From: Oryzomonas sp. | GTDB lineage: Bacteria; Desulfobacterota; Desulfuromonadia; Geobacterales; Pseudopelobacteraceae | Length of the DNA stretch: 64,000 nucleotides | Direction of reading: 5' to 3' | Assembly: GCA_031292255.1 (NCBI GenBank) | Contig: JARLHN010000041.1 | Coordinates: forward strand, 1 to 64,000 | Shown: positions 39,563-58,072 of the stretch, piece after piece | Position numbering within the stretch: the first letter of the stretch is position 1 | Layout: each line of letters starts with the position of its first letter | Program-made: the position numbers and the translations under genes | Notes under the pieces: model-generated | The model's database searches: none | Seen by the model: only the letters and a program-made list of their open reading frames with translations | What the model was told of the DNA's origin: nothing

Positions 39563-40162
39563 CTATTTGCCGTGTTTGGCAAGGTAACTGGCAACGCCTT
39601 CCTCTGTCGGTCTCATGGCTTCGTCGCCTTCCTGCCAGTTGGCCGGACAGACCTGGTCGCCGTGGGCTTCGACAAACTGGAGGGCATCCACCATGCGCAG
39701 GGCTTCAGACACATTGCGACCCAACGGCAGGTCGTTGATGACCGCGTGGCGGATGACACCCTTGGTATCGATCAGAAAGAGACCGCGCAGGGCAACGGAG
39801 TCGTTGAAAAGGATGCCGTATTCCCTGGCGATATTCTTGTTCAGGTCGGACACCAGCGGGTACTGGATGTTACCGATGCCGCCATCCTCTACAGGGGTAT
39901 TCTTCCAGGCAAGGTGGGTGAATTTGGAATCTACCGAGACCCCTATCACCTCTGTGTTGCGCTTTTTGAATTCATCCAGTTTCTTGTTGAAGGCCAGGAT
40001 CTCGGATGGGCAGACAAAGGTGAAGTCCAGGGGGTAGAAGAACAGGACGACGTTTTTGCCCTTGTAGCTGGAAATGCTGATCTGGCCGAAGGCATTGTCG
40101 GGCAGGACCGCATCGGCGGTGAAATCGGGGGCTTGCTGGGTGACGAGTGAGGCGATTGGCAT
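39563..40162 (-). CDS. Typical 2-Cys peroxiredoxin (AhpC/TSA family)
   Basis: The 199-residue protein has the peroxidatic cysteine in FYPLDFTFVCPSE near residue 51 and the resolving cysteine in DQVCPANWQEG near 171, plus the GLFLIDTKGVIRH segment. It reduces hydrogen peroxide and organic peroxides in the cytoplasm using thioredoxin or a similar donor. GGAGAG precedes the ATG. It is a single-gene unit with its own terminator. Confidence 0.92.
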   Translation of the reverse strand: MPIASLVTQQAPDFTADAVLPDNAFGQISISSYKGKNVVLFFYPLDFTFVCPSEILAFNKKLDEFKKRNTEVIGVSVDSKFTHLAWKNTPVEDGGIGNIQYPLVSDLNKNIAREYGILFNDSVALRGLFLIDTKGVIRHAVINDLPLGRNVSEALRMVDALQFVEAHGDQVCPANWQEGDEAMRPTEEGVASYLAKHGK

Positions 40163-40278
40163 GGGATTCTCTCCTTTTGTAGATGGTCACATCGAATGGA
40201 ATAACTAATACCAGCCAACCCGGCACCTGTCAAGAGGATAAAAATAGTCTTTTAGTCTTTTTATCAATTGCATCGTAT

Positions 40279-40425
40279 GTGTGAAATGACAAAATAAGTT
40301 GTCACTGGCCAATAAATGTTGTCATTCTGAGGCATATTAAATGAGATAGTCGTTTATATTCAACAAGATATGCATTGAATATATGACAAAATATGTTGTC
40401 ATTCTAATTGACAATTTTTTTGTCA
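40279..40425. repeat. Iteron array 1: TGACAA-N5/6-TTGTCA palindromes
   Basis: Perfect TGACAA-N6-TTGTCA palindromes lie at 40287-40304 and 40384-40401. A half-site TTGTCA lies at 40319-40324, and a TGACAA-N5-TTGTCA palindrome at 40409-40425. Read on the minus strand the unit is (A/G)TGACAACAT...TTGTCAT. The context GTGTGAAATGACAAAAT is repeated exactly at 52929-52943. Spacing is irregular. The array could be transposase-binding sites at a transposon end or operators for the adjacent regulator. The rest of the 40163-40667 gap holds a short frame, a terminator and a promoter. Confidence 0.75.
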
Positions 40426-40460
40426 ATGGATTTGGATTTTATTATTGGAAAGGGAAGGAA

Positions 40461-40523
40461 ATGTTCGGATCCAGTATGGCTCTCCAACACAGAGAAAGTG
40501 GACACTCTGGGCATTACTCGTAA
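40461..40523 (+). CDS. Possible 20-residue leader peptide
   Basis: ATG at 40461, preceded by a purine-rich AAGGGAAGGAA, opens a 20-codon frame ending in TAA at 40521-40523, two bases before a strong terminator stem. The product is Ser/His-rich and unlike anything I recognise. It may equally be a short untranslated RNA between the repeat array and the terminator. Confidence 0.25.
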   Translation: MFGSSMALQHRESGHSGHYS

Positions 40524-40524
40524 G

Positions 40525-40557
40525 AAAACCCGTGGGGCACACACCGGGTTTTTTTTT
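40525..40557 (+). terminator. Intrinsic terminator upstream of the sigma-54 regulator gene
   Basis: AAAACCCG and CGGGTTTT, with a 12-base GC-rich loop, are followed by nine T residues in all. It isolates the regulator's own promoter from transcription starting in the repeat array. Confidence 0.8.
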
Positions 40558-40592
40558 GCATTAATTCATAGTTCGATGATAAAAGTCTGAGG

Positions 40593-40608
40593 TGGTCGAA
40601 ATTTTGCC
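40593..40608 (+). promoter_or_regulatory. Candidate sigma-54 promoter of the first NtrC-like gene
   Basis: TGGTCG...TTTTGCC has GG at 40594-40595 and GC at 40606-40607, with the required 10-base interval. It is 60 bases before the ATG. The -24 element deviates from TGGCAC, so it would be a weak site, possibly autoregulated. Confidence 0.4.
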
Positions 40609-40667
40609 TTGAAGGAGTTGGTTGGGATGAAAAGCTATCCTCAGTTTAATCCTATGAAGGCACAGTT

Positions 40668-42080
40668 ATGACGAATATTACCCTACTCATAATTGAGGAC
40701 GATCTGAACCTTCGCAAGGGTATTGCCGCCTATTTCAGATATTTGGGGTATTCCATCCTTGAAGCATCAAATGGGAAGGAAGGCCTCGAAGTTTTTGAAC
40801 GAGGAAAGCCGGATATTGTATTCACCGACCTTCGGATGCCTGTTCTTGACGGTTTTGCCGTCATTAAGGAAATAACGCAACAGAGTCCGGATACGCCGAT
40901 CATTGTAATTTCAGGTACTGGGGTGATAATCGACGCGATTCAGGCAATGCGGCTCGGCGCTAAGGATTATGTGGTCAAGCCGATTCACGAAATGGAAGAA
41001 TTGGAACTGATTGTAGACCGGGCGTTGACAGAAAATTCTCTTCGTCACGAAGTTGATTCTCTCAAACGCAAGCTGCTGGGCGGACACGTGAAGGTGCATC
41101 CTGCCTTCTCGCCGATAACGACTCAAGCGCCTTCCATGCTGGCCGTCCTCCATTATCTTGAGGTAGTTGCCGTCACCGGCCAGCCCGTTCTGATCAATGG
41201 AGAGACAGGGGTCGGCAAGGAACTCCTCTCCCAGGCAATCCACACCATAAGCTCCCGAAAAGGCGCCTTTATTGCCATTAACGTGGCTGGCCTGGATGAC
41301 CAGATGTTTTCCGACACACTTTTCGGCCACCTCAGAGGGGCATTCACCGGCGCCGACAGGATCAGGGAAGGGCTCCTGGCACAGGCACGCGGAGGCACGC
41401 TCTTTCTCGACGAGATCGGTGACCTGAACGAATCGTCTCAGATCAAGTTGCTCCGTCTGCTCCAGGAAGGGGAATATTATCCTTTGGGCTCCGATATGCC
41501 TAGAAAGACTGATGCTCGTATTGTCGTCGCCACTCATTGCGACCTGCGCGCCATGATGGAAGCGGGCAATTTCAGGAAGGATCTCTATTACCGCCTGGCG
41601 ACGCACCAGGTAGTTGTCCCCTCCCTCAAGGACCGTCACGGCGACATCCCGTTGTTGCTTGACCGGTTTCTGGATGATGCAGCAGCAGAAATGGCAAAAA
41701 AAAGGCCAACACCGTCGCCGGAACTTTCGTCTTACCTTGAGTCGTACCACTTTCCCGGCAACATACGTGAGTTGAAGGCAATGGTATTCGATGCGGTCGC
41801 TCAGCATACGCAGGGCGTCCTCTCCATGAACAGCTTTCTCAAGGCCATCGGCAGGGGGCGGGATTGCCAGCCACCTGTTGTCGCGGAAAACGGGGCGGCG
41901 GTTGTCATTCGGGATGCAGGAGGCGAACGTATCCCAACACTCAAGGAAGCCGAGGATGCGCTGATTGCCGATGCCCTCAAACGCGCCAATGGCAACCAGG
42001 GGGTTGCAGCCGGTTATCTCGGAATCAATCGCTCCGCCCTGAACAAAAAAATTCAAAAACGAAAAAACAATTTTATCTGA
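40668..42080 (+). CDS. Sigma-54-dependent response regulator (NtrC family)
   Basis: The 470-residue protein has a receiver domain (phosphoacceptor D54 in FTDLRMP, lysine in VVKPI near 104), an AAA+ domain with Walker A GETGVGKE at 178-185, the sigma-54 contact loop GAFTGA at 224-229 and Walker B TLFLDEI near 244-250. It ends with a Fis-type HTH (NQGVAAGYLGINRSALNKKI). All parts for sigma-54 activation are intact. The receiver closely resembles that of the REC-EAL protein at 50264, so both may serve one kinase. The next gene has a strong sigma-54 promoter, a likely target. Confidence 0.93.
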   Translation: MTNITLLIIEDDLNLRKGIAAYFRYLGYSILEASNGKEGLEVFERGKPDIVFTDLRMPVLDGFAVIKEITQQSPDTPIIVISGTGVIIDAIQAMRLGAKDYVVKPIHEMEELELIVDRALTENSLRHEVDSLKRKLLGGHVKVHPAFSPITTQAPSMLAVLHYLEVVAVTGQPVLINGETGVGKELLSQAIHTISSRKGAFIAINVAGLDDQMFSDTLFGHLRGAFTGADRIREGLLAQARGGTLFLDEIGDLNESSQIKLLRLLQEGEYYPLGSDMPRKTDARIVVATHCDLRAMMEAGNFRKDLYYRLATHQVVVPSLKDRHGDIPLLLDRFLDDAAAEMAKKRPTPSPELSSYLESYHFPGNIRELKAMVFDAVAQHTQGVLSMNSFLKAIGRGRDCQPPVVAENGAAVVIRDAGGERIPTLKEAEDALIADALKRANGNQGVAAGYLGINRSALNKKIQKRKNNFI

Positions 42081-42103
42081 ATACGCTCCCCCGTTCTGAC
42101 CCC

Positions 42104-42250
42104 TGCGAAAAATTTCCCTCAGCTCTAATTTTCCCACCGAATAACAACACCCTGAAATTACGTATAGTTATATTCATCTCTCCCCGGTCTCTGCGAAATA
42201 TTTCCCACCCGTAGAACATCGCGCATCCAGCTTAACCATACGAAATATCG
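42104..42250 (+). promoter_or_regulatory. Candidate activator-binding sites upstream of the chemoreceptor genes
   Basis: TGCGAAAAATTTCCC at 42104-42118 and TGCGAAATATTTCCC at 42192-42206 are near-identical direct repeats. A third related block, TACGAAATATCG, lies at 42239-42250. They are 15-160 bases upstream of the sigma-54 site at 42264, a usual range for enhancer sites. Confidence 0.4.
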
Positions 42251-42263
42251 TGGCAATTTCATG

Positions 42264-42280
42264 TGGCATGGTACCTGCTT
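42264..42280 (+). promoter_or_regulatory. Sigma-54 promoter of the chemoreceptor operon
   Basis: TGGCATGGTACCTGCTT has GG at 42265-42266 and GC at 42277-42278 with exactly 10 bases between, close to the TGGCAC-N5-TTGC consensus. It is about 57 bases before the chemoreceptor ATG. Confidence 0.7.
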
Positions 42281-42335
42281 TTTATACGGGTAAATCTGCA
42301 CACATTACACTCGAAACAATTTAAAGAGGTGGGCC

Positions 42336-43976
42336 ATGGGATTCGTACGGAATATGTCAATTGTTGGCAAACTGGCAACCGGTTTTGGTATCGCGCTTCT
42401 ACTCATTCTGATTATCGGCCTGTTTGGTATGCAGCAGACCTTGAAACTGGGAAATCTCGGGGAACGCATGACTGTCGTTGACTCAGAGATTCTAGAACAG
42501 GGTGGCAACCTCGCAGAAAACGCACTGCAACTGCGCCGCTTCGAGAAGGATCTGTTCATCAACATAGGCAATTCAGAGGACATGAAGGAATACAGCGCCA
42601 AGTGGGAAGGGTCTCGAAAGAAAATATTAGAAATCACAGCAAGATTAGAGAAATTGTCCAGGGAGAATGGAGAGAAGCTGGATTTTGGGCCGATCAAGAC
42701 ATGTATGCAGGATTACTTCAACGGATTTGCCACGGTCAGCTCCAGGGTCTTATCGGGCGAACTGGCCACTACCGCCGATGCCAACAACGCCATGAAACCT
42801 TACAAGGATCCAATTCACAAATTTGAAAAGGAAGTGGAAACTATTACCTGCTACGCTACGAAGAAAATGGAAGATAACAAGTTCATAATCGTCAGCGTAA
42901 AAAGACAAGTCATAACAAATATCAGCATCCTGATTGTTGCCGGCTTCTTCCTGGTGTCCGTGTTTACGTACTTCATAGCACGCAGCATCACAAAACCGAT
43001 TCAAGAAACCATTGCCGCCATCAATGCAATATCCTCAGGGGATCTGACACACAAGATCACCTATGATTCGCGTGATGAACTGGGCGTCATGAGCAAGCAG
43101 TTTAACCAATTTACGGCGAAACTCCGCGATATAATAACAAGCGTTATTCAGAGCACTGTTCATGTCGCAAGCGCTTCCGCTGAATTTTCCAGCACAGCCG
43201 AGAGCATGGCAACTGCCACCGATCAGCTTACCTCACAAGCCGCTACCGTTGCCACCGCAACGGAAGAGATGGCGGCTACCGCAAGTGATATCGCCTGCAA
43301 CAGCGGAATGGCGGCAGAGGGATCGAACCAGGCCAATGAGTCAGCCATGGATGGTACCCGGGTGGTTGAAATGACCATGCAGGTTATGGACAAGATAGCC
43401 GAACAGGTTAAGAGCAGCTCAAAAACCGTTGATGAACTGGGCCGTCGTTCCGACCAGATCGGTGAAATCGTTGGAACTATCGAAGACATAGCTGATCAGA
43501 CCAACCTGCTGGCCTTGAATGCAGCCATAGAGGCAGCCCGTGCCGGTGAGCAGGGGCGTGGTTTTGCGGTCGTTGCCGATGAGGTTCGCGCCCTGGCTGA
43601 GCGAACCACCAGGGCGACAAAGGAGATCGGTGAGATGATTAAATCGATCCAGAAAGAGACCAGGAACGCAGTAAACGAAATGGAACAGGGGGTACAAGGG
43701 GTTGCCAAAGGGAGTGAAGAGGCTTTCAAATCCGGCCAGGCGCTCAAAACAATCCTTGACAGGGTTGGAAACGTAACTGTGCAAGTCAGCCAGATCGCCA
43801 CTGCCGCTGAAGAGCAAAGCGCCACAAGTATCGAGATAAGCAATAATATCCAGGAAATGACTTTTGTAATCCAGCAGAGTTCCGTAGGCACCCAGCAGAT
43901 AGCCACGTCATCGTCTGAGATGGCAAGAATGGCCGAGGAGCTAAAAAATCAGATCAGCTGGTTCAAGGTAGCCTGA
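42336..43976 (+). CDS. Methyl-accepting chemotaxis protein
   Basis: The 546-residue protein has TM1 (about 12-33), a helical periplasmic domain of about 150 residues of the four-helix-bundle type, TM2 (about 191-212), HAMP (about 212-265) and a cytoplasmic signalling domain with the invariant hairpin tip [36 protein letters not shown] (conserved throughout). There is no C-terminal receptor-tether pentapeptide. The ligand is unknown. GAGGTG precedes the ATG. It is first in a run with a second receptor, receiver, CheW and STAS-like gene. Confidence 0.93.
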
Positions 43977-44034
43977 TAATCCCGAGAGCGTAATTGTCGT
44001 CAGCATAAATAACAGTAACAGGAGAAAAATCATC

Positions 44035-45660
44035 ATGTTCAAAAATCTTGGTGTGCAAGGAAAATTGGTAGCAGCATTTTTCTTGGCAAGTGTCATCACG
44101 CTGGCGGTCGGTGTTACCGGCTTTGTCGGCGCAAGCAGGCTGGGCGACAGCTTAAATGAAATCGCGGGTAACCGTACCCCCAGTATTTTAGGTTTGGGTT
44201 ATATCAATGAAGCCCAAACTGCGGTGCTGCGCTCGGAACGCTCCTTGTTGCTTGACTTGCCTGAAGAGGCCCGGCAGCGGCTTGAGAAGCGGCTTGACGT
44301 CAGTTGGGAGAATGCCGCCAAGGGATGGAGCATCTATGAACCACTACCTCAGGCCAAGGAGGAGGAAGCCGCCTGGAAGCAGTTTGTGCCGGCCTGGGAC
44401 AAGTGGAAGAAGGAGCATCAACAGGTCATGGCGTTGATCAGGGAAGGTAAACGCGATGAGGCCAAGGCATTATCATTCGGAGCGCCTGCAAAATCCTTCA
44501 ATGAAGCTGAGGCATTATTGGTAAAGATATTGGACCTCAACGCAAAATATGCAACCGATGAACTTAATAAAGGAAAATCATTGATCAAGACGGTCCAAAG
44601 CCTGTCAGTGATCATCACTGTCATCGGTTTTCTTTTGTCCATCCTCCTCGGTTTCTTCATCGCCCGCGGCATCAAGCGTCCCCTGGCTGCCGGTGTTGCA
44701 GTGGCCAATGCCATGGCTGCCGGTGACCTGACTGTTGATGTACAGGTGACGTCCAGAGACGAAACCGGCCAACTGATGGAGGCCATGAAAAACATGGTTC
44801 ACAAGCTGCGCGAGATGGTCTCCCACACCGTGGACATTTCAGCCGGTATCGCCTCCGCTTCACAGCAGCTTCAGGCCACCTCCGAGCAAATCGCCACCGG
44901 CGCCGAAGAGGTGGCTGCCCAGGCCAATACCGTGGCAACAGCCAGCGAGGAGATGGCAGCCACCAGCAGCGACATTGCCCGCAACTGCTCCATGGCCGCG
45001 AATGCCTCCACGCAGTCCACCAGCGCGGCAACATCTGGGGCCGCGGTCGTACAGGAGACCATCACCGGCATGAACATCATAGCTGAACGGGTGCGCCAGA
45101 CCTCCAAGACTATCGAAGCCCTCGGATCTCGCTCAGAACAGATCGGCGACATTGTCGGCACTATTGAAGACATTGCCGATCAGACCAACCTGCTGGCCCT
45201 CAACGCCGCCATCGAGGCTGCTCGTGCCGGCGAACAGGGACGCGGCTTCGCCGTTGTGGCCGACGAGGTGCGTGCTCTTGCCGAGCGGACCACCAAGGCC
45301 ACTCGCGAGATCGGCGAGATGATCAAGGCCATCCAGAACGAAACCCGTGAGGCGGTCAAGGCCATGGAGGAAGGGGTTCAAGAAGTTGAGAAGGGGGCAA
45401 CGTCTTCGCAGAAATCGGGCCAGGCCCTGGAAGAGATCCTCGATCGTATCAACGAGGTCACCATGCAGGTGAACCAGATTGCTACGGCGGCGGAAGAGCA
45501 GACAGCTACCACCGGTGAAGTGACCAGCAACATCCAGCAGATCACCGAGGTGGTGCACCAGACGGCGAGAGGCGCCGAGGAGACGGCCAGTGCGGCTGCC
45601 CAACTGGCTGATCAGGCCCAGGGACTGCAAAATCTGGTCAGGCAGTTCAGACTTTCATAG
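44035..45660 (+). CDS. Methyl-accepting chemotaxis protein
   Basis: The 541-residue protein has TM1 (about 10-30), a helical periplasmic sensor rich in charged residues (about 31-185), TM2 (about 186-207), HAMP and the conserved signalling hairpin. The periplasmic domain differs from that of the preceding receptor, so it should sense something else. It starts 58 bases after the first receptor and shares its transcript. GGAG lies ten bases before the ATG. Confidence 0.93.
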
Positions 45661-45730
45661 TCTCGAACCACTTACACATGGGGTCCCTCGCCTGTCACAC
45701 CACAACAGGCGAGCTACCACGGAGAAAAGT

Positions 45731-46198
45731 ATGTCCAGTAGCTTCGATGCAATAAATGAGGATAACACCCAATGCCATTATCCTTTTTCAGCTTCAGAGA
45801 ATGGTGCGCCGCTTCGCATCCTGTTGGTGGATGATCAAGAATTAAACCGGACGCTTGTCGCTAGTATGCTGAAAGATATGGGATACTCTCTGGAGGTTTC
45901 GGAAAACGGCAAGGAAGCCGTGAGTAAATGGGAAAACGGCAGCTTCGACCTGATCCTTATGGATATCAACATGCCTATTATCGATGGCATTGAGGCCCCT
46001 TGGATTATTCGCAACCATGAAAAGGACAGGGGCGATTACACGCCAATCATCGCTTTTTCGGCGGATTTTGATAAGGAAGATTCAGGAGAATATTCAAGTC
46101 TGGGGTTTGACGGCTTTGTCAGGAAGCCGCTTATCCTTCCGACGTTAATACAGGAAATAAATCGTTGCATTCCGTTGAGACGGCCCAAGCTGGCGTAG
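45731..46198 (+). CDS. Receiver-domain protein
   Basis: The ATG at 45731 (MSSSFDAINEDN, preceded by GGAGAAAAGT) is preferred; the upstream extension overlaps the receptor gene. The 155-residue product has a ~35-residue N-terminal extension and one REC domain: VDDQELNRTLVASML, phosphoacceptor in LILMDINMPIIDG, and RKPLI. It is of the type found at the end of hybrid kinases rather than a CheY for motor binding. No output domain. Confidence 0.85.
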   Translation: MSSSFDAINEDNTQCHYPFSASENGAPLRILLVDDQELNRTLVASMLKDMGYSLEVSENGKEAVSKWENGSFDLILMDINMPIIDGIEAPWIIRNHEKDRGDYTPIIAFSADFDKEDSGEYSSLGFDGFVRKPLILPTLIQEINRCIPLRRPKLA

Positions 46199-46275
46199 TT
46201 ATTCCGCACGCGGCAGCGGGGGGGAGCTAAATTTATGCACCATTTTAAAGAAATTCCAAATCGAGGAGACTATAA

Positions 46276-46764
46276 ATGTCCACAGCACTTGTTGCTATAA
46301 AGCCCAAGGAATCTAATGGGGATCTGACCCAAATGGTCAGCTTCTCGCTCAGTCATGAGGAATACGGGGTTGAAGTTCTCAAGGTGCGGGAGATCATACG
46401 GATGGCCGGCATCACCCACATTCCCAATGCCCCGCATTATCTGGAGGGGATTATCAATCTCCGCGGCAAAGTCATTCCGGTCATCTCCATGCGCAAAAGG
46501 TTTGGCATGATGGAACAGGAACACAGTACCCAGACTCGCATCATTATCATGGATATAGAAGGAGAGTTGATGGGCTTCATTGTGGATGCTGTTTCGGAGG
46601 TAATCCGCATCTCGGCCGGGGAGATTCAACCCCCACCGGCGACAGTGGCAGATGGAGGAGAGCAGGAATGTATAGCCGGTGTTATCAACCGGTCTGATCG
46701 CTTGTTGGTGCTGCTCGATCTGGACAGGATATTCTCCCGTGAGGAAAAGCAGTTGTTCGCCTGA
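46276..46764 (+). CDS. cheW: Chemotaxis coupling protein CheW
   Basis: The 162-residue protein has the CheW beta-fold signatures: VSFSLSHEEYGVEVLKVREI, IPNAPHYLEGIINLRGKVIPVI, and GFIVDAVSEVIRI. It links receptors to the CheA kinase in signalling arrays. GAGGAG lies seven bases before the ATG. No CheA, CheR or functional CheB is in the window, so these receptors must join arrays encoded elsewhere. Confidence 0.92.
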   Translation: MSTALVAIKPKESNGDLTQMVSFSLSHEEYGVEVLKVREIIRMAGITHIPNAPHYLEGIINLRGKVIPVISMRKRFGMMEQEHSTQTRIIIMDIEGELMGFIVDAVSEVIRISAGEIQPPPATVADGGEQECIAGVINRSDRLLVLLDLDRIFSREEKQLFA

Positions 46765-46785
46765 ATCGGTATGGAGGAAAATAGA

Positions 46786-47322
46786 GTGGCTGAAATACAA
46801 ACATTCATTTCAAGTGAATTGACGATAAGAAAAATCATCGGCGAGGTGACTGCCAGTGTATTGATGGATAATTTGCGGCAATTCTATGCGGGGCACGTTA
46901 CGGAAAACGTGATATGGGATCTGACGGATGGGTCCATTGGCAATTTGACGTCAAGCAACATGAAGCAGATTTCAGAGTTAGTCCTTCATCATGCCCATAC
47001 CAGGATTGATGGGAAAACGGCTATAGCGGCCCCGGAAAATGTGGACTTCGGTATGAGTAGAATGCTCCATACCTATGCAGATATTGGAAATATACCGTTT
47101 GAAACACAAATATTTCGAACGCTGGCGGAGGCTGCCAAATGGGTAGGAGTCGATCTGTCGGCAATTGACAATGTGACCGAACTACCGGATGCCCGGATCG
47201 GCTATATAGCCAGCCGTTCGGAGATCAGCCCAGCCGTGGAGATGGACAGGTGCTGCTCACAAAACCCATTACCCCTCTGCATCTGCCACAAGGTGCGGGA
47301 AATACTGGACGACCGTTCTTGA
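46786..47322 (+). CDS. SpoIIAA/STAS-like protein with C-terminal extension
   Basis: I prefer GTG 46786, which has GGAGG eight bases upstream; ATG 46771 would overlap that site. The 178-residue protein has a STAS-like start (SELTIRKIIGEVTASVLMDNLRQFYA, VIWDLTDGSIGNLTSSNM), then a domain with KTAIAAPENVDFGMSRMLHTYA and FETQIFRTLAEAAKWVG. The Cys-rich tail (RCCSQNPLPLCICHKV) is unusual. It resembles the small protein at 52029 and may be a regulatory partner. Function unknown. Confidence 0.55.
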   Translation: MAEIQTFISSELTIRKIIGEVTASVLMDNLRQFYAGHVTENVIWDLTDGSIGNLTSSNMKQISELVLHHAHTRIDGKTAIAAPENVDFGMSRMLHTYADIGNIPFETQIFRTLAEAAKWVGVDLSAIDNVTELPDARIGYIASRSEISPAVEMDRCCSQNPLPLCICHKVREILDDRS

Positions 47323-47392
47323 GGCATACTATATTCCCTGAAACGAATGGCGGCACCCTTGGGCGCTGTTGTAGGGAAACGGGGAGGAATGC

Positions 47393-50239
47393 ATGGCGAT
47401 AATAAATTTCCGCCAGGGCGGATGTGCCATGATAGCGTGTGTCGTTATGTTCACAGCAGCGATGCTGCTGTGCTGCGCAACAGCCGAAGCGGATCCGCAG
47501 GGGAAATCGCTGCTCCTGCTCGGCAACCTGGATTATCCTCCGCTCAATTTCATTGAAAACGGAATTTCCAAGGGGGTGACGGTCGATATCGTGAGGGCTC
47601 TGTCCAAGGAGATGGGACGTCAGATCAATATCGAACTGACCGACTGGAACACCGCCCAGGAGAAGGTCCTCAAGGGCGAGGCTGACGGGCTGATCGAGAT
47701 GAGCATTTCCGATAAGCGCAAGCAACTCTACGATTTCTCCAATCCGATATTGACGAACGAGTTCAGCCTGTTTGTCCGCAGCGATGATATACGTATCAGA
47801 GGGGTGGGCAACCTTGCCGGGATGAAGGTCGCGGTGACCAAGGGAGGATTGCCAGATGTATTCATGGAGGCGCGTCCCGAGGTTGTGGTGGTTCCGGTCG
47901 GAAGCTACCGCGAGGGGGTCGAGCGGCTTGCAGCCGGGAGCGTGGACGCATTTGCCGGTGACCGCTGGGTAGGAGCATACATTATCCGTACACATGACCT
48001 GCGAGGCATAAAGGTCACAGGTTCACCCTTTGCGTCGCTGCCGGGAGCCATTGCCATCAGGAAAGGGAATCCGCAACTGGTGGCGGAGATCAACCAAGCC
48101 ATCGCAAGACTGGAAAAAACGGGTGCAATAGCGCGGATTCAAGACAAGTGGCGTCCGCAGGAAATGGTCTTTCTCTCGTGGCAGCGGGCGAGAAGGATCG
48201 TGATAACGGCGGCGTCTCTTGTACTGTTGGTGTTGGCCGGTGCCATAGCTATCTGGATCATGTCCCTCAAACGGCAGATTCGCGAGCGTAAGAAGGCGGA
48301 ACAGGCCTTGCTGGGAAGCCAGGCCATACTGTCGCAAATATTGGACTCCATCCCGCAGGGGATATTCTGGAAGGATCGTGACTGCGTCTACCAGGGATGC
48401 AACAAGATTCTCGCTAAAACTCTGGGGTTTAGCGCCTCCGACCAAGTAATCGGAAAGACCGATTTCGATCTGTCTTGGCCGCAGGAAGAGGCAGAGGCTT
48501 ACCGGGCGGATGACCAAGATGTGATGGAGACCGGTAGACCAAAGCGGCACATTGTGGAACCGTTGCAGCAGGCCGATGGTAGCCGGCTGTGGGTTGACAC
48601 TACCAAGGTTCCTCTTGCTGATGATAGCGGCAATGTGTATGGCGTTCTTGGCGTCTTCGACGATATTACCGACCGCAGGAAAAATGAGGAAGCTCTTCGG
48701 GAAAGCGAGAGGAAATACCGTGAACTCGTTGAAAACCTGAACGTCGGCGTCTTCAGGAGCATACCGACGTCAGAGCGTGTCGTGAGCGCCAACACCGCAC
48801 TGGTTGAAATCTTCGGCTATGACACACTGTCGGAGTTCCAACGACAGCCGATCTCGGCCCACTACCACCACGACACTGACTGGTCTCTCATCATCGAAAA
48901 GGTTTCCCGCGAGGGGCAGATCAAGGATTGGGAAGTGGAGGCCTGCAAGAAGGATGGCAGCACCATTTGGATTACTATCAGCGCCAAGGCGCACTATGAT
49001 GGACATGGAACTGCTGTCCGTTGGATCGACGGTATCATCGAGGACATCACCGAGCGGCGCCGCACGGAAGAAATATTACGGGAAAACGAACAGCGCTTCC
49101 GTGCGATTTTTGAACATTCGGGGATCGGCATTGCCGTCGTGGATATGCAAGGACATCCCATAGAAAGCAACCCTGTGCTCTTGAAGATGCTAGGCTACAA
49201 TGAAGAAGAACTTGGCGTCATGAGGTTCACGGAGTTTACCCATCCCGACGATAGAGATCCGGATTGGGGGCTTTTCGGCGAACTCCTTGAAGGAAAGCGT
49301 GACCGCTACCAGATAGAAAAACGCTATGTCACAAAAACCGGGCAGGTGATATGGGGGCGCTTGACGGTTTCCATCATCCGGGATGCCGCAGGCAATCCAT
49401 TGTACTGTATCGGCATGGTCGACGACATTACCGAGCGTCAACAGATGCAGGAGATAATGGTCCAGGCCGAAAAGATGGCCATGATCGCGGGGTTGGCGGC
49501 CGGCATGGCCCACGAAATCAATAATCCGCTTGGGATTATCGTGCAGAACCTTCAGGTGTTGGAGCAGCGCTTTTCTCCAAGATATTCGCGGAATATCGAG
49601 GTTGCTGAACAGGTTGGCTTAGACTTCGGGCTGTTGCTCAAATATCTGGAACGCCAGGAGATTTTTGATTTCATCAACGGCATGAAAGATGCCGGCAAAC
49701 GGGCGTCTAAGGTTATGACCAATACGCTGCAATTCAGCAGGAAAAGCGGTGAGGGGCACCAGTCCGTTTTTCTGCCGGCAGTTTGCGACCAGGCCTTGGA
49801 AATGACAGAAAATGATTACGACCTCAAGAAGCGTTATGATTTCAAGGCCATTACGATTTTCAGGGAGTATGCCGATGATCTGCCGCAGATATCGGTCAAC
49901 ATATCCGAAATCGTGCAAGTGCTGATCAATCTGCTCAAAAATGCCGCCCAGGCATTGTCAGAAGGCAGCATTGACAGGAAGCCGTTGATACGTATCAGTG
50001 CGCGCCGCCACAATGGCATGGTCGAACTTAAAATCTCGGATAACGGGCCAGGAATGCCGGAAGAGATAAGGCGACGTGTTTTCGAACCTTTCTTCACCAC
50101 CAAGGAGGTGGGCGTCGGCACCGGTCTCGGTCTGGCGGTCTCATACACCATCATAACTAATAATCACGGGGGCTCGATTGATGTTGACTCATCACCGGGC
50201 AACGGCACCTGCTTTACCATTCAACTGCCAATAAAGTAA
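47393..50239 (+). CDS. Membrane histidine kinase with periplasmic solute-binding sensor and three PAS domains
   Basis: The 948-residue protein has a signal segment (about 12-32), a periplasmic type-3 solute-binding domain (about 38-258; [35 protein letters not shown]), one TM helix (about 270-290), PAS domains at about 308-430, 440-560 and 565-685, and a HisKA domain with H near 706 in [11 protein letters not shown]. The HATPase has [19 protein letters not shown] and [16 protein letters not shown] precedes the ATG. The sensor fold normally binds amino acids or small carboxylates. It lies 24 bases before a receiver-EAL gene, its obvious partner. Confidence 0.9.
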
Positions 50240-50263
50240 TTAGATGCATCCTGAGGCTCAGCT

Positions 50264-52000
50264 ATGAATGAAATAAATCAGACGATATTGACCATAGAAG
50301 ATGATCGGGACGTGCGTCGTGGCATTGCCGCCTTTCTCGAGTATGCCGGTTTCAAGGTGCTTGAAGCGGACAATGGCCGTAAAGGGATTGAGGTTTTTGA
50401 GCGGGAACATCCCGATCTTGTCCTGACCGACTTGAAAATGCCGGTGATGGATGGATTTTCAGTCATTTCGGCGATCGCGCAAATGAGTCCCGGTGTTCCC
50501 GTGGTTGCCATATCCGGAACGGGTGTTGTAACTGATGCAGTTGAGGCTATACGCAGAGGCGCATGGGACTTCATCACCAAGCCGATCAGCGACCTCAACG
50601 AGTTGGTAACCATTGCCAGAAAAGTGCTGGAACAGGCCGAAGAACGCCGGGAGCATCAAGATTACCTGAGCAACCTTGAAGGCATGGTTACTACTCAATC
50701 CCGGCAATTATCGGATCTGACAAGCGTGGACGCGCTCACCGGTCTGCCTACCAAATCGCGGTTGGAAGAATTTTTTCAGCAGGGGCTTTTATCACACGAT
50801 TTACCTGCAAATCCGCTCCTGTTGCTGATCGAGCTGGACAATTTCAATTCCGTGAATCACTCCCATGGCAATGATTATAGCGATTTAATACTTTTGGAGA
50901 CAGGCAAGCGCCTTAAATCGGCATTAAGGGCATGTGGCGAGGTTTGCCGAGTGAATGAGGCCAGGTTTGCCATGTTGGTATTTGGTTATGACAAACCATC
51001 ACAATTGGCCGCTGAGATCAAAACCTGCTTTAAAGAACCGTTCCAAATATTAGGCCAGGAATTTTTTATCAGCGTGAGTATCGGCATTTCCGTGTTCCCT
51101 CAAGACGGCGAGTCGTTTGGAAAGCTTATCCGAAATGCCGACATTGCCTTATCGGAGGCAAGGATCCTGGGCAGGAACAGGCACGTTTATTACTCCATCG
51201 GACTGAGCGACAAAATTCAAGAACGTATAAAATTGGAAACTCGTCTCCAGCATGCACTTGAAAGAAATGAGTACCTTCTTAATTATCAACCCAAATTCGA
51301 TTCAAAAACGCACCAGGTCATGGGCATGGAAGTCCTTTTGCGATGGCAACCGGCCGGGACAGATAGGCCGGAATCACCAGCGGTCTTTGTTCCGGTCCTG
51401 GAAGAGGGCGGCCTGATCGTGCCAGTCGGAGAATGGGTCCTTCGAACAGCCTGTTCGCAGTACGTCCAATGGAGATCTCATGGAATGCCCCCTTTGCGGC
51501 TTTCAGTTAATATTTCCGTTCACCAGTTTCACTCCGGCATACTGGTCGATACCGTGAGGGCAGTCTTGCAAGATACGGGTATGGACCCATCCTGTCTGTG
51601 CCTCGAAATCACAGAAAGCATCGTAATGAAAGACATCCAACAGACAATCGAGACTCTCCATGCATTTGTGGAGATGGGGATCAAGCTTTCTCTGGACGAT
51701 TTCGGCACCGGCTACTCGTCGCTTTCCTATCTCAGAAAAATGCCGCTCCATGAGATAAAAATAGACCGATCGTTCGTCATGAACCTGCCTGACGACTGCA
51801 GTGCGGTTGCTATTACTGAATCCATCATCGCCATGGCCCACAGCCTGAATTTGACGATTGTTGCAGAGGGTGTCGAAACGGAGGAACAACTGGATTTTTT
51901 TGCAGCGCGGCGGTGCCAGGAGATTCAGGGGTTCTACTTTAGCAAACCATTAAATGGAGAAGATTTCCTCCAATTTGTATCACGATCTAGAAGCTTCTAG
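50264..52000 (+). CDS. Receiver - degenerate GGDEF - EAL c-di-GMP phosphodiesterase
   Basis: The 578-residue protein has a REC domain (D56 in LTDLKMP), a short coil, and a GGDEF-like domain (about 155-305) in which the catalytic motif is replaced by NEARF, so it should not make c-di-GMP. The EAL domain (about 320-570) has EVL in place of EAL but keeps the glutamate, SVNISVHQF, EITES, LDDFGTGYSSL, IKIDRSFV and EGVET, so hydrolysis is expected. The degenerate domain may bind GTP as an allosteric site. It follows the sensor kinase by 24 bases. Confidence 0.88.
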   Translation: MNEINQTILTIEDDRDVRRGIAAFLEYAGFKVLEADNGRKGIEVFEREHPDLVLTDLKMPVMDGFSVISAIAQMSPGVPVVAISGTGVVTDAVEAIRRGAWDFITKPISDLNELVTIARKVLEQAEERREHQDYLSNLEGMVTTQSRQLSDLTSVDALTGLPTKSRLEEFFQQGLLSHDLPANPLLLLIELDNFNSVNHSHGNDYSDLILLETGKRLKSALRACGEVCRVNEARFAMLVFGYDKPSQLAAEIKTCFKEPFQILGQEFFISVSIGISVFPQDGESFGKLIRNADIALSEARILGRNRHVYYSIGLSDKIQERIKLETRLQHALERNEYLLNYQPKFDSKTHQVMGMEVLLRWQPAGTDRPESPAVFVPVLEEGGLIVPVGEWVLRTACSQYVQWRSHGMPPLRLSVNISVHQFHSGILVDTVRAVLQDTGMDPSCLCLEITESIVMKDIQQTIETLHAFVEMGIKLSLDDFGTGYSSLSYLRKMPLHEIKIDRSFVMNLPDDCSAVAITESIIAMAHSLNLTIVAEGVETEEQLDFFAARRCQEIQGFYFSKPLNGEDFLQFVSRSRSF

Positions 52001-52028
52001 CATGGCAATTCTCGTTTTTTCAACACCT

Positions 52029-52397
52029 TCAGGTGTTGGGCTCTTCCATAAGCCATCGAAGGGCTTCCTGTTCTTCAGAAAAGACCTTTAAAATGGCCCC
52101 CCGATTTACGGCCGTGTCTTCTCCAAATTTATTTACTAACTTGGGGTCGGCAAATGCAGCAATCTTGAACGGTGGTGGTAAGACTTGCGCCGCGTATTCT
52201 CCAGACCAAAAGCGAGTCATTTCAGAGTCGGGTCGAGATAGCTCACACATGTCAAAAATAAGATATTTAAAGCCTTGCTGATCAGCCTCGGTCTTAATCT
52301 CATCGAGTGATTGCCTCATGGCCGGTGTAGTCCATTCTCCACACATTTTGACCAGAAGGTATTCAGGATGTATATGAAACTGCACTTCGATAGCCAT
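52029..52397 (-). CDS. SpoIIAA/STAS-like small protein
   Basis: The 122-residue cytosolic protein has the alternating beta/alpha order of a SpoIIAA-like fold: VQFHIHPEYLLVKMCGEW, then FKYLIFDMCELSRPD, FKIAAFADPKLVNKFGED, and a terminal EEQEALRWLMEE. Similar proteins occur beside two-component genes. It is transcribed opposite to the kinase operon from its own promoter. Function unknown. Confidence 0.6.
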   Translation of the reverse strand: MAIEVQFHIHPEYLLVKMCGEWTTPAMRQSLDEIKTEADQQGFKYLIFDMCELSRPDSEMTRFWSGEYAAQVLPPPFKIAAFADPKLVNKFGEDTAVNRGAILKVFSEEQEALRWLMEEPNT

Positions 52398-52417
52398 AAG
52401 CTTATTTCCTCATCAAT

Positions 52418-52445
52418 ATTATAACTCAACTTTCGCAGTTGGCAA
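52418..52445 (-). promoter_or_regulatory. Sigma-70 promoter for the STAS-like gene
   Basis: On the minus strand TTGCCA (52440-52445) and TATAAT (52418-52423) are 16 bases apart, 20 bases before the gene's start codon; the leader is very short. Confidence 0.5.
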
Positions 52446-52589
52446 TTACGTTTAACTCTGCTGTTATTAATGAAATAGCGCCGCAAACAGGGTTAACATG
52501 ATTTTGTTCCCCAACAAAACCGCTTACACAGAGAGACGACGCTATGCGCCATGTCACTCACAATCATGCTGGGTTTTAGGAATTGACTG

Positions 52590-52800
52590 GGTATGCCGGG
52601 CTTTTATCCGATCCTGGATGTGACTGTACTTCGCGGCCATGGCGAATCGTGGCATTACGAAGCGTCTCTTGGACCACTTTGACGTCGCTCGTTTATAGGT
52701 AGAGAGCTGCGCTCAGCAGGTATGCCGCAGCGCATGACAGGCGAGATGCGGCCGGCTGATGACTGCGTTGCTGTAGATCGTGTCGATTAGCATGCTCAAG
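52590..52800 (-). pseudogene. Remnant of a XerC/D-type site-specific recombinase
   Basis: On the minus strand HALRHT (about 52719-52737) matches the HxLRHT active-site box. About 30 bases further, in another frame, comes VKVVQETLRNATI (about 52644-52686), which matches the VKVVQELLRHANI segment of transposon-type tyrosine recombinases. The catalytic tyrosine region is degraded to REVQSHPG. Stops and frameshifts separate the pieces, so only a decayed C-terminal piece survives. The flanking 52446-52590 sequence shows no gene. Confidence 0.65.
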
Positions 52801-52837
52801 CCGAGCCCGCTCAGACTCGAACCATTAATCCCTTCAC

Positions 52838-52961
52838 AGTGACAACATATATTGGCATTTGTCCTTCTGCTAACCTATTGATTTTTAATATCCCTGAGTG
52901 ACAACATATTTTGGCATTTCACAGTCGTGTGAAATGACAAAATCATGTTGTCACTTAAAGA
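52838..52961. repeat. Iteron array 2: MITE-like 124-bp unit
   Basis: AGTGACAACATATATTGGCATTT begins the unit, and the complement of AGTGACAACAT...TTTGTCATTT ends it, forming imperfect terminal inverted repeats of about 23 bases. A further internal copy (TGACAACATATTTTGGCA) is at 52899-52916. The right end, GTGTGAAATGACAAAAT plus GTTGTCACT, matches array 1. The first 47 bases match 57976-58022 in about 37 positions. Confidence 0.7.
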
Positions 52962-53109
52962 AGGCTATTACCATTTTTATTATCAGCAGTCAAAAAAGCC
53001 GAAATTACGTGTACGGACGAACCGCTCGTGGCACTAGCAAGCTGACGCAGTCGATAGTATAATAATTCAAACCTTGAGAGGTAGTCAGCAGTTTTGATAT
53101 AGGTAACGA

Positions 53110-54891
53110 ATGATGACTATTTCATATCGATCAGAAATCCGCAGCCGGGCGAGAATCCATTTCATTTCTTTCCTTTCGTTTCTGCTCATAACGGTTTTCC
53201 TTACCGGCAAAGCCGGTTCGGTTGATCTCTCGGCACAAGGTGCGCCCCATGTTATTGTCGTCGGCGGCGATCGGGATTATCCTCCCTATGAATTCATAGA
53301 CAAGAACGGTCAACCGGCAGGGTTCAACGTTGAACTTACCAAGGCCATCGCCGATGTCATGGGGATGAAGGTAGAGTTCAAACTCGGCGGCTGGTCGGAG
53401 CAGCGATCAGCTCTGCAGAATGGGCACGTTGACGTTCTGGAGGGGATGTCGTTGTCGGAAGAGCGGGTCAAAGAAGTAGAATTTTCTCTGCCGTATGCCA
53501 TGGTCAACCATGCGGTGTTCGCCCGTCGCGATTCTCCGATGGTAAACTCCCTCGCTGAGCTGGAAGGGAAATCGGTAGCCGTCCACCGGGGCGGGATCAT
53601 GCACGACAAGTTGGTACGGGAAGGTTTTTCCGGCAGCCTCCAGCTTACTCCGACCCCGGCGGATGCTTTACGTCTTCTGGCAGCCGGTAAAGCTGATTAT
53701 GCCATCGTCGCCATCGTACCAGGCATGTACATCATTCGCGAACTGAAGCTGACCAACCTCTATCCAGCGGTGCGTAACGTGGCTACCCACCGCTACGGCT
53801 TTGCCGTCAGGAAAGGGAACACGGAGCTGTTGTCACGCTTCAACGAGGGGATGGCCATCCTCAGGAAAACCGGTCAGTACGATACGATTTACAACAAATG
53901 GCTGGGAGTGCTGGAGCCGGAGCGTGTCGATTGGCGCACCATCGTCAAGTACGGAGCGGTAGTAGTTGTCCCACTGGTGGTTCTCCTGGGGGGTTTTGCG
54001 CTTTGGTCGCGTACCCTGCACCAGCAGGTTGCTTTGCGTACTATTGACCTGACACGGGAAATAGCCGAACGCAAACACGCCGAAGAAGAGTTGCGCCTTA
54101 ACCAGCAACAGCTTGTCCAGGCCGACAAATTGGCTGCTCTGGGTGTTCTGGTTTCCGGGGTTGCCCACGAGATAAACAACCCGACCGGCCTTATTCTCCT
54201 AGATGTTCCGATCTTGAAACGGGCTCAGAGCGATACGGAAAGAATTCTCGAAGAATATTTTGGGGTGCATGGTGATTTCACCATCGGCGGACTCCCTTAT
54301 TCTGAAATGCGCGATGAGATCCCGAGGATCCTCGACGAAATGCAGGATGGGGCCAAACGTATCAAACGGATCGTCAACGATCTGAAAGATTTTGCCCGGC
54401 GCGATGATACGGCCAATAAAGAACATATCGACCTTAATACGGTGGTCCGTACGGCACTGCGGTTGGTCGATCCGACGATTCGCAAGGCAACGAATCACCT
54501 GACCGTCGATTACGGTGAGGGGATACCGCCGATATTGGGCAACAGCCAAAGGATCGAGCAGGTGGTGGTCAACCTGATTCTCAATGCCTGTCAGGCTCTG
54601 CCGGATGCGGAGCGGGGCATTTGGATCAAAACCCTCTTCAACCGTGCTACGGCGAGTGTTATTCTGGTGGCGCGAGATGAAGGGATCGGCATTGCCCACG
54701 AGAACCTGTCGCGCCTGACGGATCCTTTTTTCACCACCAAGCGGGAGAACGGCGGAACCGGTCTCGGTTTGTCGGTATCCGACGGCATCATCAAGGAACA
54801 TGGCGGCCACCTTGACTTTGAATCCGTCCTTGGCGCCGGCACAACCGTTACTCTGTCGATACCCGCATTCTCCAAGGAGTTGACAACATGA
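53110..54891 (+). CDS. Histidine kinase with periplasmic solute-binding sensor
   Basis: The 593-residue protein has a signal/TM segment (about 15-36), one type-3 solute-binding domain (about 48-270; DRDYPPYEFIDKNGQPAGFNVEL, ALQNGHVDVLEGMSLSEERV), TM2 (about 283-305), a coiled linker, and HisKA with H near 353 in GVAHEINNPTG. The HATPase has NLILNACQALP, DEGIGIAHEN and NGGTGLGLSVS. It lacks PAS domains. Its stop overlaps the start of the sigma-54 regulator (ATGA), making a coupled two-component pair. The ligand may be an amino acid or dicarboxylate carried by the Dcu transporter downstream. Confidence 0.92.
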   Translation: MMTISYRSEIRSRARIHFISFLSFLLITVFLTGKAGSVDLSAQGAPHVIVVGGDRDYPPYEFIDKNGQPAGFNVELTKAIADVMGMKVEFKLGGWSEQRSALQNGHVDVLEGMSLSEERVKEVEFSLPYAMVNHAVFARRDSPMVNSLAELEGKSVAVHRGGIMHDKLVREGFSGSLQLTPTPADALRLLAAGKADYAIVAIVPGMYIIRELKLTNLYPAVRNVATHRYGFAVRKGNTELLSRFNEGMAILRKTGQYDTIYNKWLGVLEPERVDWRTIVKYGAVVVVPLVVLLGGFALWSRTLHQQVALRTIDLTREIAERKHAEEELRLNQQQLVQADKLAALGVLVSGVAHEINNPTGLILLDVPILKRAQSDTERILEEYFGVHGDFTIGGLPYSEMRDEIPRILDEMQDGAKRIKRIVNDLKDFARRDDTANKEHIDLNTVVRTALRLVDPTIRKATNHLTVDYGEGIPPILGNSQRIEQVVVNLILNACQALPDAERGIWIKTLFNRATASVILVARDEGIGIAHENLSRLTDPFFTTKRENGGTGLGLSVSDGIIKEHGGHLDFESVLGAGTTVTLSIPAFSKELTT

Positions 54892-56297
54892 CCCAACAAG
54901 CCTATCCCGGCTTCAGCATCCTCTTGGTCGATGATGAGCCTGCCTGGTTGAATTCGCTTTCCCTTATCCTGAGAAGCTGCGCCGGATTAATCAATATCAA
55001 AACATGCCAGGAGAGCCGGGATGTAATGGGACTGCTTGCCAATGGGGATATCGGCCTTGTCATCCTCGATCTCACCATGCCCTTCCTGTCGGGTGAAGAA
55101 CTCCTCAAACAAATCAGTGAGCAGCACCCCGAAGTCATCGCCATTGTCGTCAGCGGGCTTAATCAACTTGAAACCGCAGTCCGCTGCATGAAACTTGGCG
55201 CGTTCGACTATTTCATCAAGACCGATGAAGAAGAGCGGATTGTCGGGGGGGTGCTGCGAGCCGTCCGGATGAAGGAAATGCAACGCGATTACCTGGAGAT
55301 GTCAACCAGTCTGGCCAGCGGCGAATTGCGTCATCCTGAGGCGTTTGCCGCCATCGTCACCGCAGATCGGGCACTCCTGAAGGTCTTTGCCTATCTGGAG
55401 GCGGTTGCTAAGAGCCCTCAGCCACTCCTGATAACCGGCGAGAGCGGGGTGGGCAAAGAGCTGGTCGCACAGGCTGCCCATCGTTTGAGCGGTTGTCGAG
55501 GCAAACTGGTGACGGTCAATGTCGCCGGCCTGGATGACAATGTCTTTGCCGACAGCCTCTTCGGCCACATCCGGGGGGCCTTCACCGGCGCCGAGCATGT
55601 CCGGCGCGGCATGGTCGAGGAGGCGGCCGATGGGACCTTGTTTCTTGACGAGATCGGTGACTTGAGTATTGCTTCCCAAGTCAAGTTGTTGCGGTTGCTG
55701 CAGGAAGGGGAGTTCTTCCCCATTGGCTGCGATCAGCCCAAACGCATCAAGGCACGCATCATAGTGGCCACCCATCAGAACCTGACGGAAAAGGAGAGAT
55801 CGGGTGCCTTCCGCCGGGATCTCTTCTATCGCCTCCGCATCCATCAGGTTCATATTCCGCCTTTGCGGGAACGGCCAGGTGACATCCCGCTGCTCTTGGA
55901 TCATTTCCTGGAAGAGGCGGCTCGAACCTTGGGCAAAAAGAAACCAACTCCTCCCAGGGAGCTGGCTCAGTATCTGGCGTCATACAGCTTCCCTGGCAAT
56001 GTACGTGAACTCAGGGCAATGGTTTATGACGCCGTCAGTGTGCATCAAAACCGGATGCTTTCAATGGACTCGTTTGTCAATGCTGCCGAAAGATCCAAAT
56101 CCGTTACAGGAGAAACTCCCTCCCACCCCAAACAAAATCCCTTTGCCGGGTTTGCCGAACTTCCCACCTTCAGCGAAGCTGCCGGATTTCTTGTGACCGA
56201 AGCGATGAACCGTGCCAGCGGCAATCAGACGATGGCGGCGCGCCTCCTCGGTATCTCCCAGCCGGCCCTGAACAAACGTTTGAAGGTTATGCGTTGA
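54888..56297 (+). CDS. Sigma-54-dependent response regulator (NtrC family)
   Basis: The 469-residue protein has a receiver (D61 in VILDLTMP, FIKTDEE), an AAA+ domain with Walker A TGESGVGKE, the GAFTGA loop intact, Walker B TLFLDEIGDL, and a Fis-type HTH (NQTMAARLLGISQPALNKRL). The lysine position of the receiver reads IKTD rather than KP. AAGGAG lies before the ATG. A textbook sigma-54 promoter and palindromes lie before the next gene, so activation of the Dcu transporter is the best prediction. Confidence 0.93.
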   Translation: MTQQAYPGFSILLVDDEPAWLNSLSLILRSCAGLINIKTCQESRDVMGLLANGDIGLVILDLTMPFLSGEELLKQISEQHPEVIAIVVSGLNQLETAVRCMKLGAFDYFIKTDEEERIVGGVLRAVRMKEMQRDYLEMSTSLASGELRHPEAFAAIVTADRALLKVFAYLEAVAKSPQPLLITGESGVGKELVAQAAHRLSGCRGKLVTVNVAGLDDNVFADSLFGHIRGAFTGAEHVRRGMVEEAADGTLFLDEIGDLSIASQVKLLRLLQEGEFFPIGCDQPKRIKARIIVATHQNLTEKERSGAFRRDLFYRLRIHQVHIPPLRERPGDIPLLLDHFLEEAARTLGKKKPTPPRELAQYLASYSFPGNVRELRAMVYDAVSVHQNRMLSMDSFVNAAERSKSVTGETPSHPKQNPFAGFAELPTFSEAAGFLVTEAMNRASGNQTMAARLLGISQPALNKRLKVMR

Positions 56298-56302
56298 ACC
56301 CG

Positions 56303-56408: not shown

Positions 56409-56485
56409 GATTTCGAGTATTACAAGACCGTTCTAATACATAATAAAACTGTATTATCTTGGATAGATAGACATATTTTCTCTTT

Positions 56486-56502: not shown

Positions 56503-56565
56503 TGAAAGGATAGATATGAAAGGGAGCTCATCCCAACAACTCTTTCCCAAACATGGAGGTTTGTC

Positions 56566-57894: not shown

Positions 57895-57919
57895 ATATCG
57901 GCAGGCTGTGGAATATTAA

Positions 57920-57958: not shown

Positions 57959-57975
57959 TGATTCCAGATCTACTC

Positions 57976-58072
57976 CGTGACATCATTTATTGGAGTTTGT
58001 CCATCCGATAACCTACTGATTGATCATGTCCCAGTGTGTCCACCAATTGCCGATTTATGTTGCCACTCAAAG
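57976..58072. repeat. Degenerate third copy of the TGACAA repeat unit
   Basis: The first 47 bases (GTGACATCATTTATTGG, TTTGTCC, TAACCTACTGATT blocks) match 52838-52884 in about 37 positions. The last 17 (TATGTTGCCACTCAAAG) match the end of array 2 in about 14; an internal stretch of roughly 25-30 bases is missing. It overlaps the 3' end of a short minus-strand gene that appears truncated there. Confidence 0.6.

Follow-up and report, generated by a model that had tools for sequence, protein, structure and literature searches.

Two tandem elements with Tn7-like ends and sensory cargo, probably non-autonomous and transposable, at the promoter of a peroxiredoxin gene in Oryzomonas sp.

Transposons of the Tn7 family are characterized by a 5-bp target duplication, a controlled orientation and a distance from the target that is set by TnsC, and Tn7 and the glmS-linked elements combine asymmetric ends of several sites with insertion at one chromosomal site in a fixed position and orientation (parts of PMC11406308). 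In the I-F3 CRISPR-associated transposon Tn6677 the 20-bp TnsB sites are unevenly spaced, one end has an IHF site between two of its TnsB sites, and strict end specificity has been reported (parts of the preprint PMC13370975). In Tn7-like elements delimited from tnsB, arrays of ~20-bp inverted repeats bound the cargo (parts of PMC8649781). Here we analyze a stretch of 64,000 nucleotides from Oryzomonas sp. (contig JARLHN010000041.1, positions 1 to 64,000; hereafter the window), taken from a genome (G000) of 44 contigs that is 88% complete. In the window two tandem elements, 40280-52923 (element A) and 52928-58067 (element B), instead of one, adjoin the promoter of a peroxiredoxin gene (prx), and we consider it very probable that they are non-autonomous transposable elements with Tn7-like ends and sensory cargo. 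They resemble Tn7 and the glmS-linked elements in their ends and fixed place, and differ in their target, which is not glmS, and in the tns genes, which those elements possess. The likeness to Tn6677 is one of layout, and neither a tns nor a cas gene was recognized in the elements described here. The features that define the locus are the following.

39563..40162, minus strand: peroxiredoxin gene (prx, AhpC/TSA family, by Pfam); the region upstream is presumed to serve as the attachment site
40245..40261, plus strand: conserved prx-promoter motif TAGTCTTTTAGTCTTTT, with the first end site at a nearly constant distance
40280..40425, plus strand: left-hand end of element A (L), made up of the terminus TGTGAAATGACAAAAT and four sites
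52838..52923, plus strand: right-hand end of element A (R), with two sites at a spacing of 59 bp and the terminus ...GGCATTTCACA
52871..52883, minus strand: IHF-like motif AATCAATAGGTTA, flanked by the two R sites of element A, an exact match to the IHF consensus WATCAANNNNTTR
52928..52956, plus strand: left end of element B, one site, starting 4 bp past the R end of element A
57975..58067, plus strand: decayed right end (R') of element B, matched by BLAST to 52832-52910 (73% over 79 bp, E 1.4e-9)

A sequence-only reading of this DNA had pointed out two arrays of repeats, and both are present where it placed them, at 40279-40425 and 52838-52961. The pattern TGACAAMATNTNTTGTCA, with up to 3 mismatches, has nine matches in 64 kb when both strands of the near-palindromic sites are counted, and 9/9 lie inside the two arrays; shuffled sequence gave a mean of 0.89 and a maximum of 3 matches, and 0/100 shuffles reached nine. 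The L and R ends of element A share the terminal inverted repeats TGTGAAATG[A/C]CAAAAT and carry several ~20-bp sites each. The 16-mer TGTGAAATGACAAAAT occurs without change at both 40280 and 52928, and its inverse, altered at one position, ends at 52923; genome-wide, TGTGAAATGMCAAAAT has three zero-mismatch matches, exactly these, and two more with 2 mismatches. The sites of L (40287-40304, ~40308-40326, 40384-40401 and ~40408-40425) form a close pair, a gap of ~50-60 bp and a second close pair, the fourth site being weak (model E 2), and this four-site layout recurs in two other genomes, G028 and G102. Asymmetric ends with several inverted ~20-bp sites, a Tn7-like trait, are thus seen at predicted sites in element A, G028 and G102. 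The proposal of two opposed ends stood, but the third copy that had been counted in the right array (52928) starts a second, adjacent element, and the left array resolves into four sites.

The copy at 52928 is in left-end orientation, 4 bp after 52923, so that the window reads prx, L, signalling cluster, R, L, then kinase, regulator and dcuB, then R'. The BLAST match that delimits R' was obtained before any model was built. Element B is less certain than element A, since R' is decayed and its left end has the first site only. An L-like terminus also lies 3-7 bp past R in G028 and G130, as in the window (random stretches score as high with frequencies of 0.0008 in our genome, 0.0058 in G028 and 0.0010 in G130, using a matrix that includes a copy of our own terminus). 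At 52897-52957, the R end of element A and the L end of element B form an imperfect inverted repeat with arms of ~27 bases and a 4-base spacer. No third pair of ends was found by the models in the window or in stretch L077; on contig C25, positions 58887-71100 hold further open reading frames (ORFs) that read by eye as signalling genes, up to the contig end.

The place of the ends upstream of prx is nearly constant. Orthologues of prx are 92-95% identical in five genomes of the same genus, and in G001-G005 (same genus) the left flank is syntenic through prx while everything beyond the prx promoter differs. The block to the right of 40.28 kb is therefore absent from the prx site in G001-G005, a comparison that the sequence-only reading had suggested; the exact empty site is not alignable, because the sequence diverges just past the promoter motif. 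Ends lie upstream of prx in eight genomes of three genera (our own, G004, G011, G027, G028, G102, G125 and G130), and in 8/8 the terminus points to prx. The distance from the promoter motif to the first unit is 36-39 bp in 7/8; in G004 the unit is in the same place, below the script threshold. The prx-side end is shown to be L by its four sites in our genome, G028 and G102 and by an R end on the far side in G130; in G125 (contig C31), with two close sites, it is likely an L. In G004, G011 and G027 a single unit remains at prx. Fixed distance and orientation at one attachment site, another Tn7-like trait, are thus observed. Ends away from prx occur in G125 (contig C44), and as R ends in G005 and on contig C32 of G004.

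To follow the ends beyond the window we ran three models, our own genome being included in each sample. The unit model, made from sequence alone, was run on 57 genomes and led to G028. The right-end model, run on 141 genomes of the order at E 0.01, gave matches in 10/141, several of them weak; those in G102 and G130 were new and lay outside the model, scoring 52-55 bits, compared with 81-89 bits in the training members (our own genome, G028, G004 and G005). The third end model, run on 277 genomes of the class at E 0.001, matched 10/277, all of our organism's own family (our own, G004, G005, G009, G011, G027, G028, G102, G125 and G130). An exact 21-base unit pattern, searched in one genome per species, gave 12 stretches, of which 8 fall in five genomes also found here and 4, in unrelated organisms, are taken as chance. 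A 26-base end pattern had no matches in one genome per species for 84,980 species, a set from which our own genome's records were possibly left out, and viral contigs gave no match.

In other genera, homologous L and R ends enclose unrelated contents. In G028, of another genus, a four-site L upstream of prx is followed by a hipAB pair and a two-site R. On contig C44 of G125, 13.6 kb separates L from a right end of a single site, and the genes in between encode kinases, receivers, two chemoreceptors, CheW and CheX. On C31, the prx locus of the same genome, a lone left-type end is followed by a kinase, CheW, a chemoreceptor and CheR, with no right end in the stretch fetched. G102 has a full L at prx and an R on a different contig, with a kinase gene close to each of them, and G130 has an element of 0.9 kb without an ORF of at least 100 aa. 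In G005 the R end comes after the stop of purT (PurT by Pfam), and mixed genes lie behind it, including Mrr_N-like and PIN-domain proteins. Signalling cargo is therefore common, not universal, given hipAB in G028, the near-empty element in G130 and the mixed genes in G005; this tally is raw, unscaled to how common signalling genes are in the genomes concerned, and a preference for such cargo is at most possible. The DNA between the two R sites is conserved across loci with unrelated flanks, and several ends are nearly identical across genera. The proposal of a cargo-only element is supported by the unrelated cargo within homologous ends, by the constant place at prx and by the R-end homology described below, except that there are two elements, not one.

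The same data bear on whether the arrays could be operator clusters of a dimeric regulator that controls prx, the sigma-54 regulator and the solute-binding kinase. In favour of this, the sites are imperfect palindromes (TGACAA-N6-TTGTCA), intergenic and upstream of regulator genes, and several genomes have a single unit in front of prx. Against this, opposed L/R pairs surround unrelated genes, the sequence between the R sites is conserved despite unrelated flanks, the R end in G005 follows the purT stop, and sites are present at 3/39 prx loci sampled irrespective of ends. Nor are single copies scattered upstream of many genes of our own genome: the unit model (E up to 1) matches nothing but both arrays, the decayed third array and a partial copy on contig C32, and two further single pattern matches have 2 mismatches. 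Together with the homology to a tns-operon end described below, these results lead us to give operator clusters very little credence.

The partial copy on C32 (199103-199140; L029:11111-11139) is a lone right-end-like site, directly after a radical-SAM-like gene and with a tRNA-like string GGACTCGAACC before it; a similar string precedes the right end in the window. Integration at a tRNA 3' end, an idea prompted by these strings before two copies, was dropped because ARAGORN finds no tRNA there; Rfam at E 1 gave no match in 39.5-54 kb. Also on C32 (L010:1690-1800), a repeat of ~34 bases, TTAATCGCACTTAGGAATTTC..., has two direct copies near the contig end.

We further analyzed the transposition genes. 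The statement that no transposase lies inside held for all five elements whose two ends are assembled (own A, own B, G028, the C44 element of G125, and G130): none has a tns gene by ORF and Pfam analysis (0/5), and tblastn of 14 Tns proteins from three genomes against the five gave a best E of 0.094, a search that divergent remnants could escape. Recognizable TnsB, TnsC and TniQ/TnsD content, a Tn7-like trait, is therefore missing, and we class these as elements with Tn7-like ends, not as autonomous Tn7-like transposons. TniQ has 37 matches in 26/141 genomes of the order, our own included. Long stretches around 19 of these places, and around G079, were scanned for a helper, and an end-like match near the scanned places was found in G043 only. 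Our own genome holds two Tn7-like machineries. On C37 (L213) there is a glmS-linked TnsABCD element; its sites on the glmS side are 20 bp apart, of the AAAAATATGTCGGCTACT type and unmatched to the R ends. On C12 (L214:2275-8921) a TnsAB fusion, TnsC and TniQ lie upstream of clustered cell-wall genes (penicillin-binding protein at L214:11147-13123). The names glmS, mraZ, ftsI, plsC, galU and radical-SAM are presumptive and were assigned by eye; three of these genes have, by Pfam, SIS, transpeptidase and acyltransferase domains.

In G043, from another family of the same order, contig C145 carries a TnsB/TnsC/TniQ transposon whose TnsB is related to that of Tn7 (PDB 7pik, E 4.7e-42). The right-end model matches between its TniQ gene and an acyltransferase gene with an E of 0.0055 for one genome, so that about one such match is expected by chance over 141 genomes. 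Direct alignment of this TniQ-side end gave scores of 53, 54 and 38 with the R ends of our own genome, G028 and G102, respectively (shuffle means 20-21; 0/500 shuffles each reach the score); with G028 the alignment spans ~76 bp (54 versus a shuffle mean of 20.1). The opposite, ssb-side end scored 45, 41 and 37 with the same R ends (shuffle means 16-18; 0/500 each) and 29-36 with the three L ends, where 6, 0 and 1 of 500 shuffles reached the score. Control ends from our own glmS element and the ssb element of G002 were shuffle-like against the R ends (66-228/500 reach the score), with a lowest figure of 11/500 against the L ends. The alignments are not fully independent of the model match, since they were made after it. 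On this comparison, the R end is judged homologous to an end of a TnsB/TnsC/TniQ-bearing element.

The G043 element is also like the present ones in the spacing of the R sites (58 versus 59 bp), in a AATCAATAGGTT motif between them and in its insertion upstream of the start of a housekeeping gene; it differs in having tns genes, in lying at ssb and not prx, in a TniQ-side end unlike the L ends here and in an ssb-side end of three sites 20 bp apart. Of nine right-type ends, four, the two of G043 among them, have the IHF-like motif exactly, and 8/9 have it within one mismatch, compared with ~1% exact and 9-23% within one mismatch in single-base shuffles; these counts are not independent, because the nine ends are related. 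The elements of G043 (L212) and G002 (L216) form one lineage, with TnsB 40% identical, and both terminate immediately before the start codon of ssb (SSB by Pfam in G002; ssb of G043 read from its first residues), which makes the ssb start region a possible attachment site of those elements. G037 has a weak R-end match with no known tie to a tns operon.

Multi-site ends are also described for Tn5053, Tn5090 and Tn552 (parts of PMC8649781), and the arrays might therefore belong to another multi-site DDE transposon of a Mu-, IS21- or Tn5053-like kind; an integrase-like gene at the far left of the window might instead suggest a site-specific recombinase element with the repeats as core sites. We regard both as highly improbable. 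Inside the elements we found no transposase of the Mu, IS21 or Tn5053 type, and the homologous ends that lie beside transposase genes belong to a TnsB/TnsC/TniQ set. The sequence-only reading had named Tn7-like and IS21-like ends together; the R-end homology to G043 supports the former, while the genes of elements A and B have no Pfam match to an IstA/IstB family. The decayed tyrosine recombinase that it had placed beside the right array found no confirmation, as four chosen open pieces gave no Pfam match at E 10. A tyrosine integrase is encoded at 6137-7496 (Arm-binding and central domains; catalytic part weak, E 0.0043), by a tRNA-Ser gene at 7608-7698, and a neighbouring ORF has no clear Pfam match.

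We propose that the short sites in each end would be bound by a TnsB-type DDE transposase, with the four-site left end facing prx and the two-site right end bent by IHF at the IHF-like site between its sites. A selector of the TniQ/TnsD type would bind the prx promoter, with TnsC setting the spacing, and a later insertion would land between prx and the older copy to give the R-L tandem. The elements, and with element A its sensory module as one block, presumably owe their movement to TnsABC/TniQ machinery supplied in trans and related to that of G043, or else they may have lost such genes later.

Several results weigh against non-autonomous transposable elements of this kind. There is no recognizable tns gene inside any delimited element (0/5), and 8/10 end-bearing genomes have no TniQ match, the two with TniQ being our own and G011. 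In our own genome, which the sequence-only reading had proposed to search for the repeat unit beside an intact transposase, both Tn7-like machineries are without matching sites in the stretches fetched. Transposons of this kind are moreover reported not to cross-mobilize even close homologues (parts of the preprint PMC13370975). The TniQ-side end of G043 is unmatched to the L ends (48-188/500 shuffles reach the score), and an L-like terminus is not clear after 3/6 R ends (G102, G005 and G004). A target-site duplication, also suggested for checking, did not turn up: no exact 5-bp duplication is present at the predicted termini of 4/4 elements (own A, own B, G028 and G130), with 4-of-5 matches at shifted positions only, in insertions that are old and tandem and have uncertain termini. 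Among 39 prx loci collected irrespective of ends, our own included and G016 contributing 185 bases, 3 carry an end (our own, G004 and G011); G027, G028, G102, G125 and G130 were picked up through their ends, outside this sample. Finally, G021 holds an array-free related cluster of regulator, receiver, chemoreceptors, CheW and kinase in partly similar order (regulator 81%, CheW 81% and part of the kinase 70% identical), which goes some way towards the gene order without arrays that was to speak against one mobile block, and G019 carries the kinase-EAL pair without arrays. Such array-free clusters may be cargo sources, or a warning that the block of element A may not move as one.

Some of these points would fit a sub-case, in which autonomous Tn7-like transposons at prx lost tnsABC and tniQ in place, while ends and useful cargo stayed and nothing moved in trans. 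Decayed ends (57975-58067 in the window, and in G004), the many single ends, the missing target-site duplication, the 8/10 end-bearing genomes without a TniQ match and the strict end specificity reported (parts of PMC13370975) are all consistent with such fossils. Conversely, 0/5 delimited elements from four genomes, 0.9 to 13.6 kb long, show a tns gene or a tblastn remnant (best E 0.094), and several ends are nearly identical across genera. We consider loss in place a serious but minority possibility within the broader reading of non-autonomous elements with Tn7-like ends.

The cargo of these two elements, all assigned by Pfam unless stated otherwise, is as follows, starting with element A (40280-52923).

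40668..42080, plus strand: REC-sigma54 activator-Fis regulator
42336..43976, plus strand: chemoreceptor (4HB-HAMP-MCP)
44035..45660, plus strand: chemoreceptor (4HB-HAMP-MCP)
45590..46198, plus strand: receiver protein, start uncertain (receiver domain from residue 77 of the ORF)
46276..46764, plus strand: CheW
46771..47322, plus strand: 183-aa protein without a Pfam match, homologues in 9/56 other genomes, best 67% (G009)
47393..50239, plus strand: solute-binding (SBP_bac_3)-PAS histidine kinase
50264..52000, plus strand: REC-GGDEF-EAL protein
52029..52397, minus strand: SpoIIAA/STAS-like protein, weak (Pfam E 0.0041, below the cut-off)

Element B (52928-58067) carries three genes.

53110..54891, plus strand: SBP_bac_3 histidine kinase, with 80% relatives elsewhere in the genus
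54888..56297, plus strand: REC-sigma54 activator, with 81% relatives beside a kinase in G001, G005 and G041
56566..57894, plus strand: DcuA/DcuB C4-dicarboxylate transporter (dcuB); the same trio is found in G041

Relative to the genes first read between the arrays, the regulator, two chemoreceptors, receiver, CheW, kinase and REC-EAL protein (REC-GGDEF-EAL by Pfam) were recovered, while the STAS label is unproved for the 183-aa protein and weak for 52029..52397.

The literature searched, which left subscription journals mostly outside, yielded neither cargo-only Tn7-like elements nor a prx attachment site. Peroxiredoxin does not occur in the main texts of PMC10293859 and PMC8649781, nor do Geobacter and chemotaxis in that of the latter. 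More broadly, we put forward, tentatively and at a little less than an even chance, that these elements represent a Geobacteraceae satellite family with Tn7-like ends and no transposition genes, which would home in trans to the prx promoter, stack in tandem and carry chemotaxis and two-component modules about by preference, so that the sensing encoded behind a peroxide-defence gene would be rewired. If so, surveys that start from tnsB cannot see such elements. The survey described in parts of PMC8649781 begins at tnsB and would miss them, so that the cargo between Tn7-type ends could be underestimated, because elements that keep their ends alone escape it. For the family, sensory modules between such ends suggest one possible route by which signalling genes might be gained.

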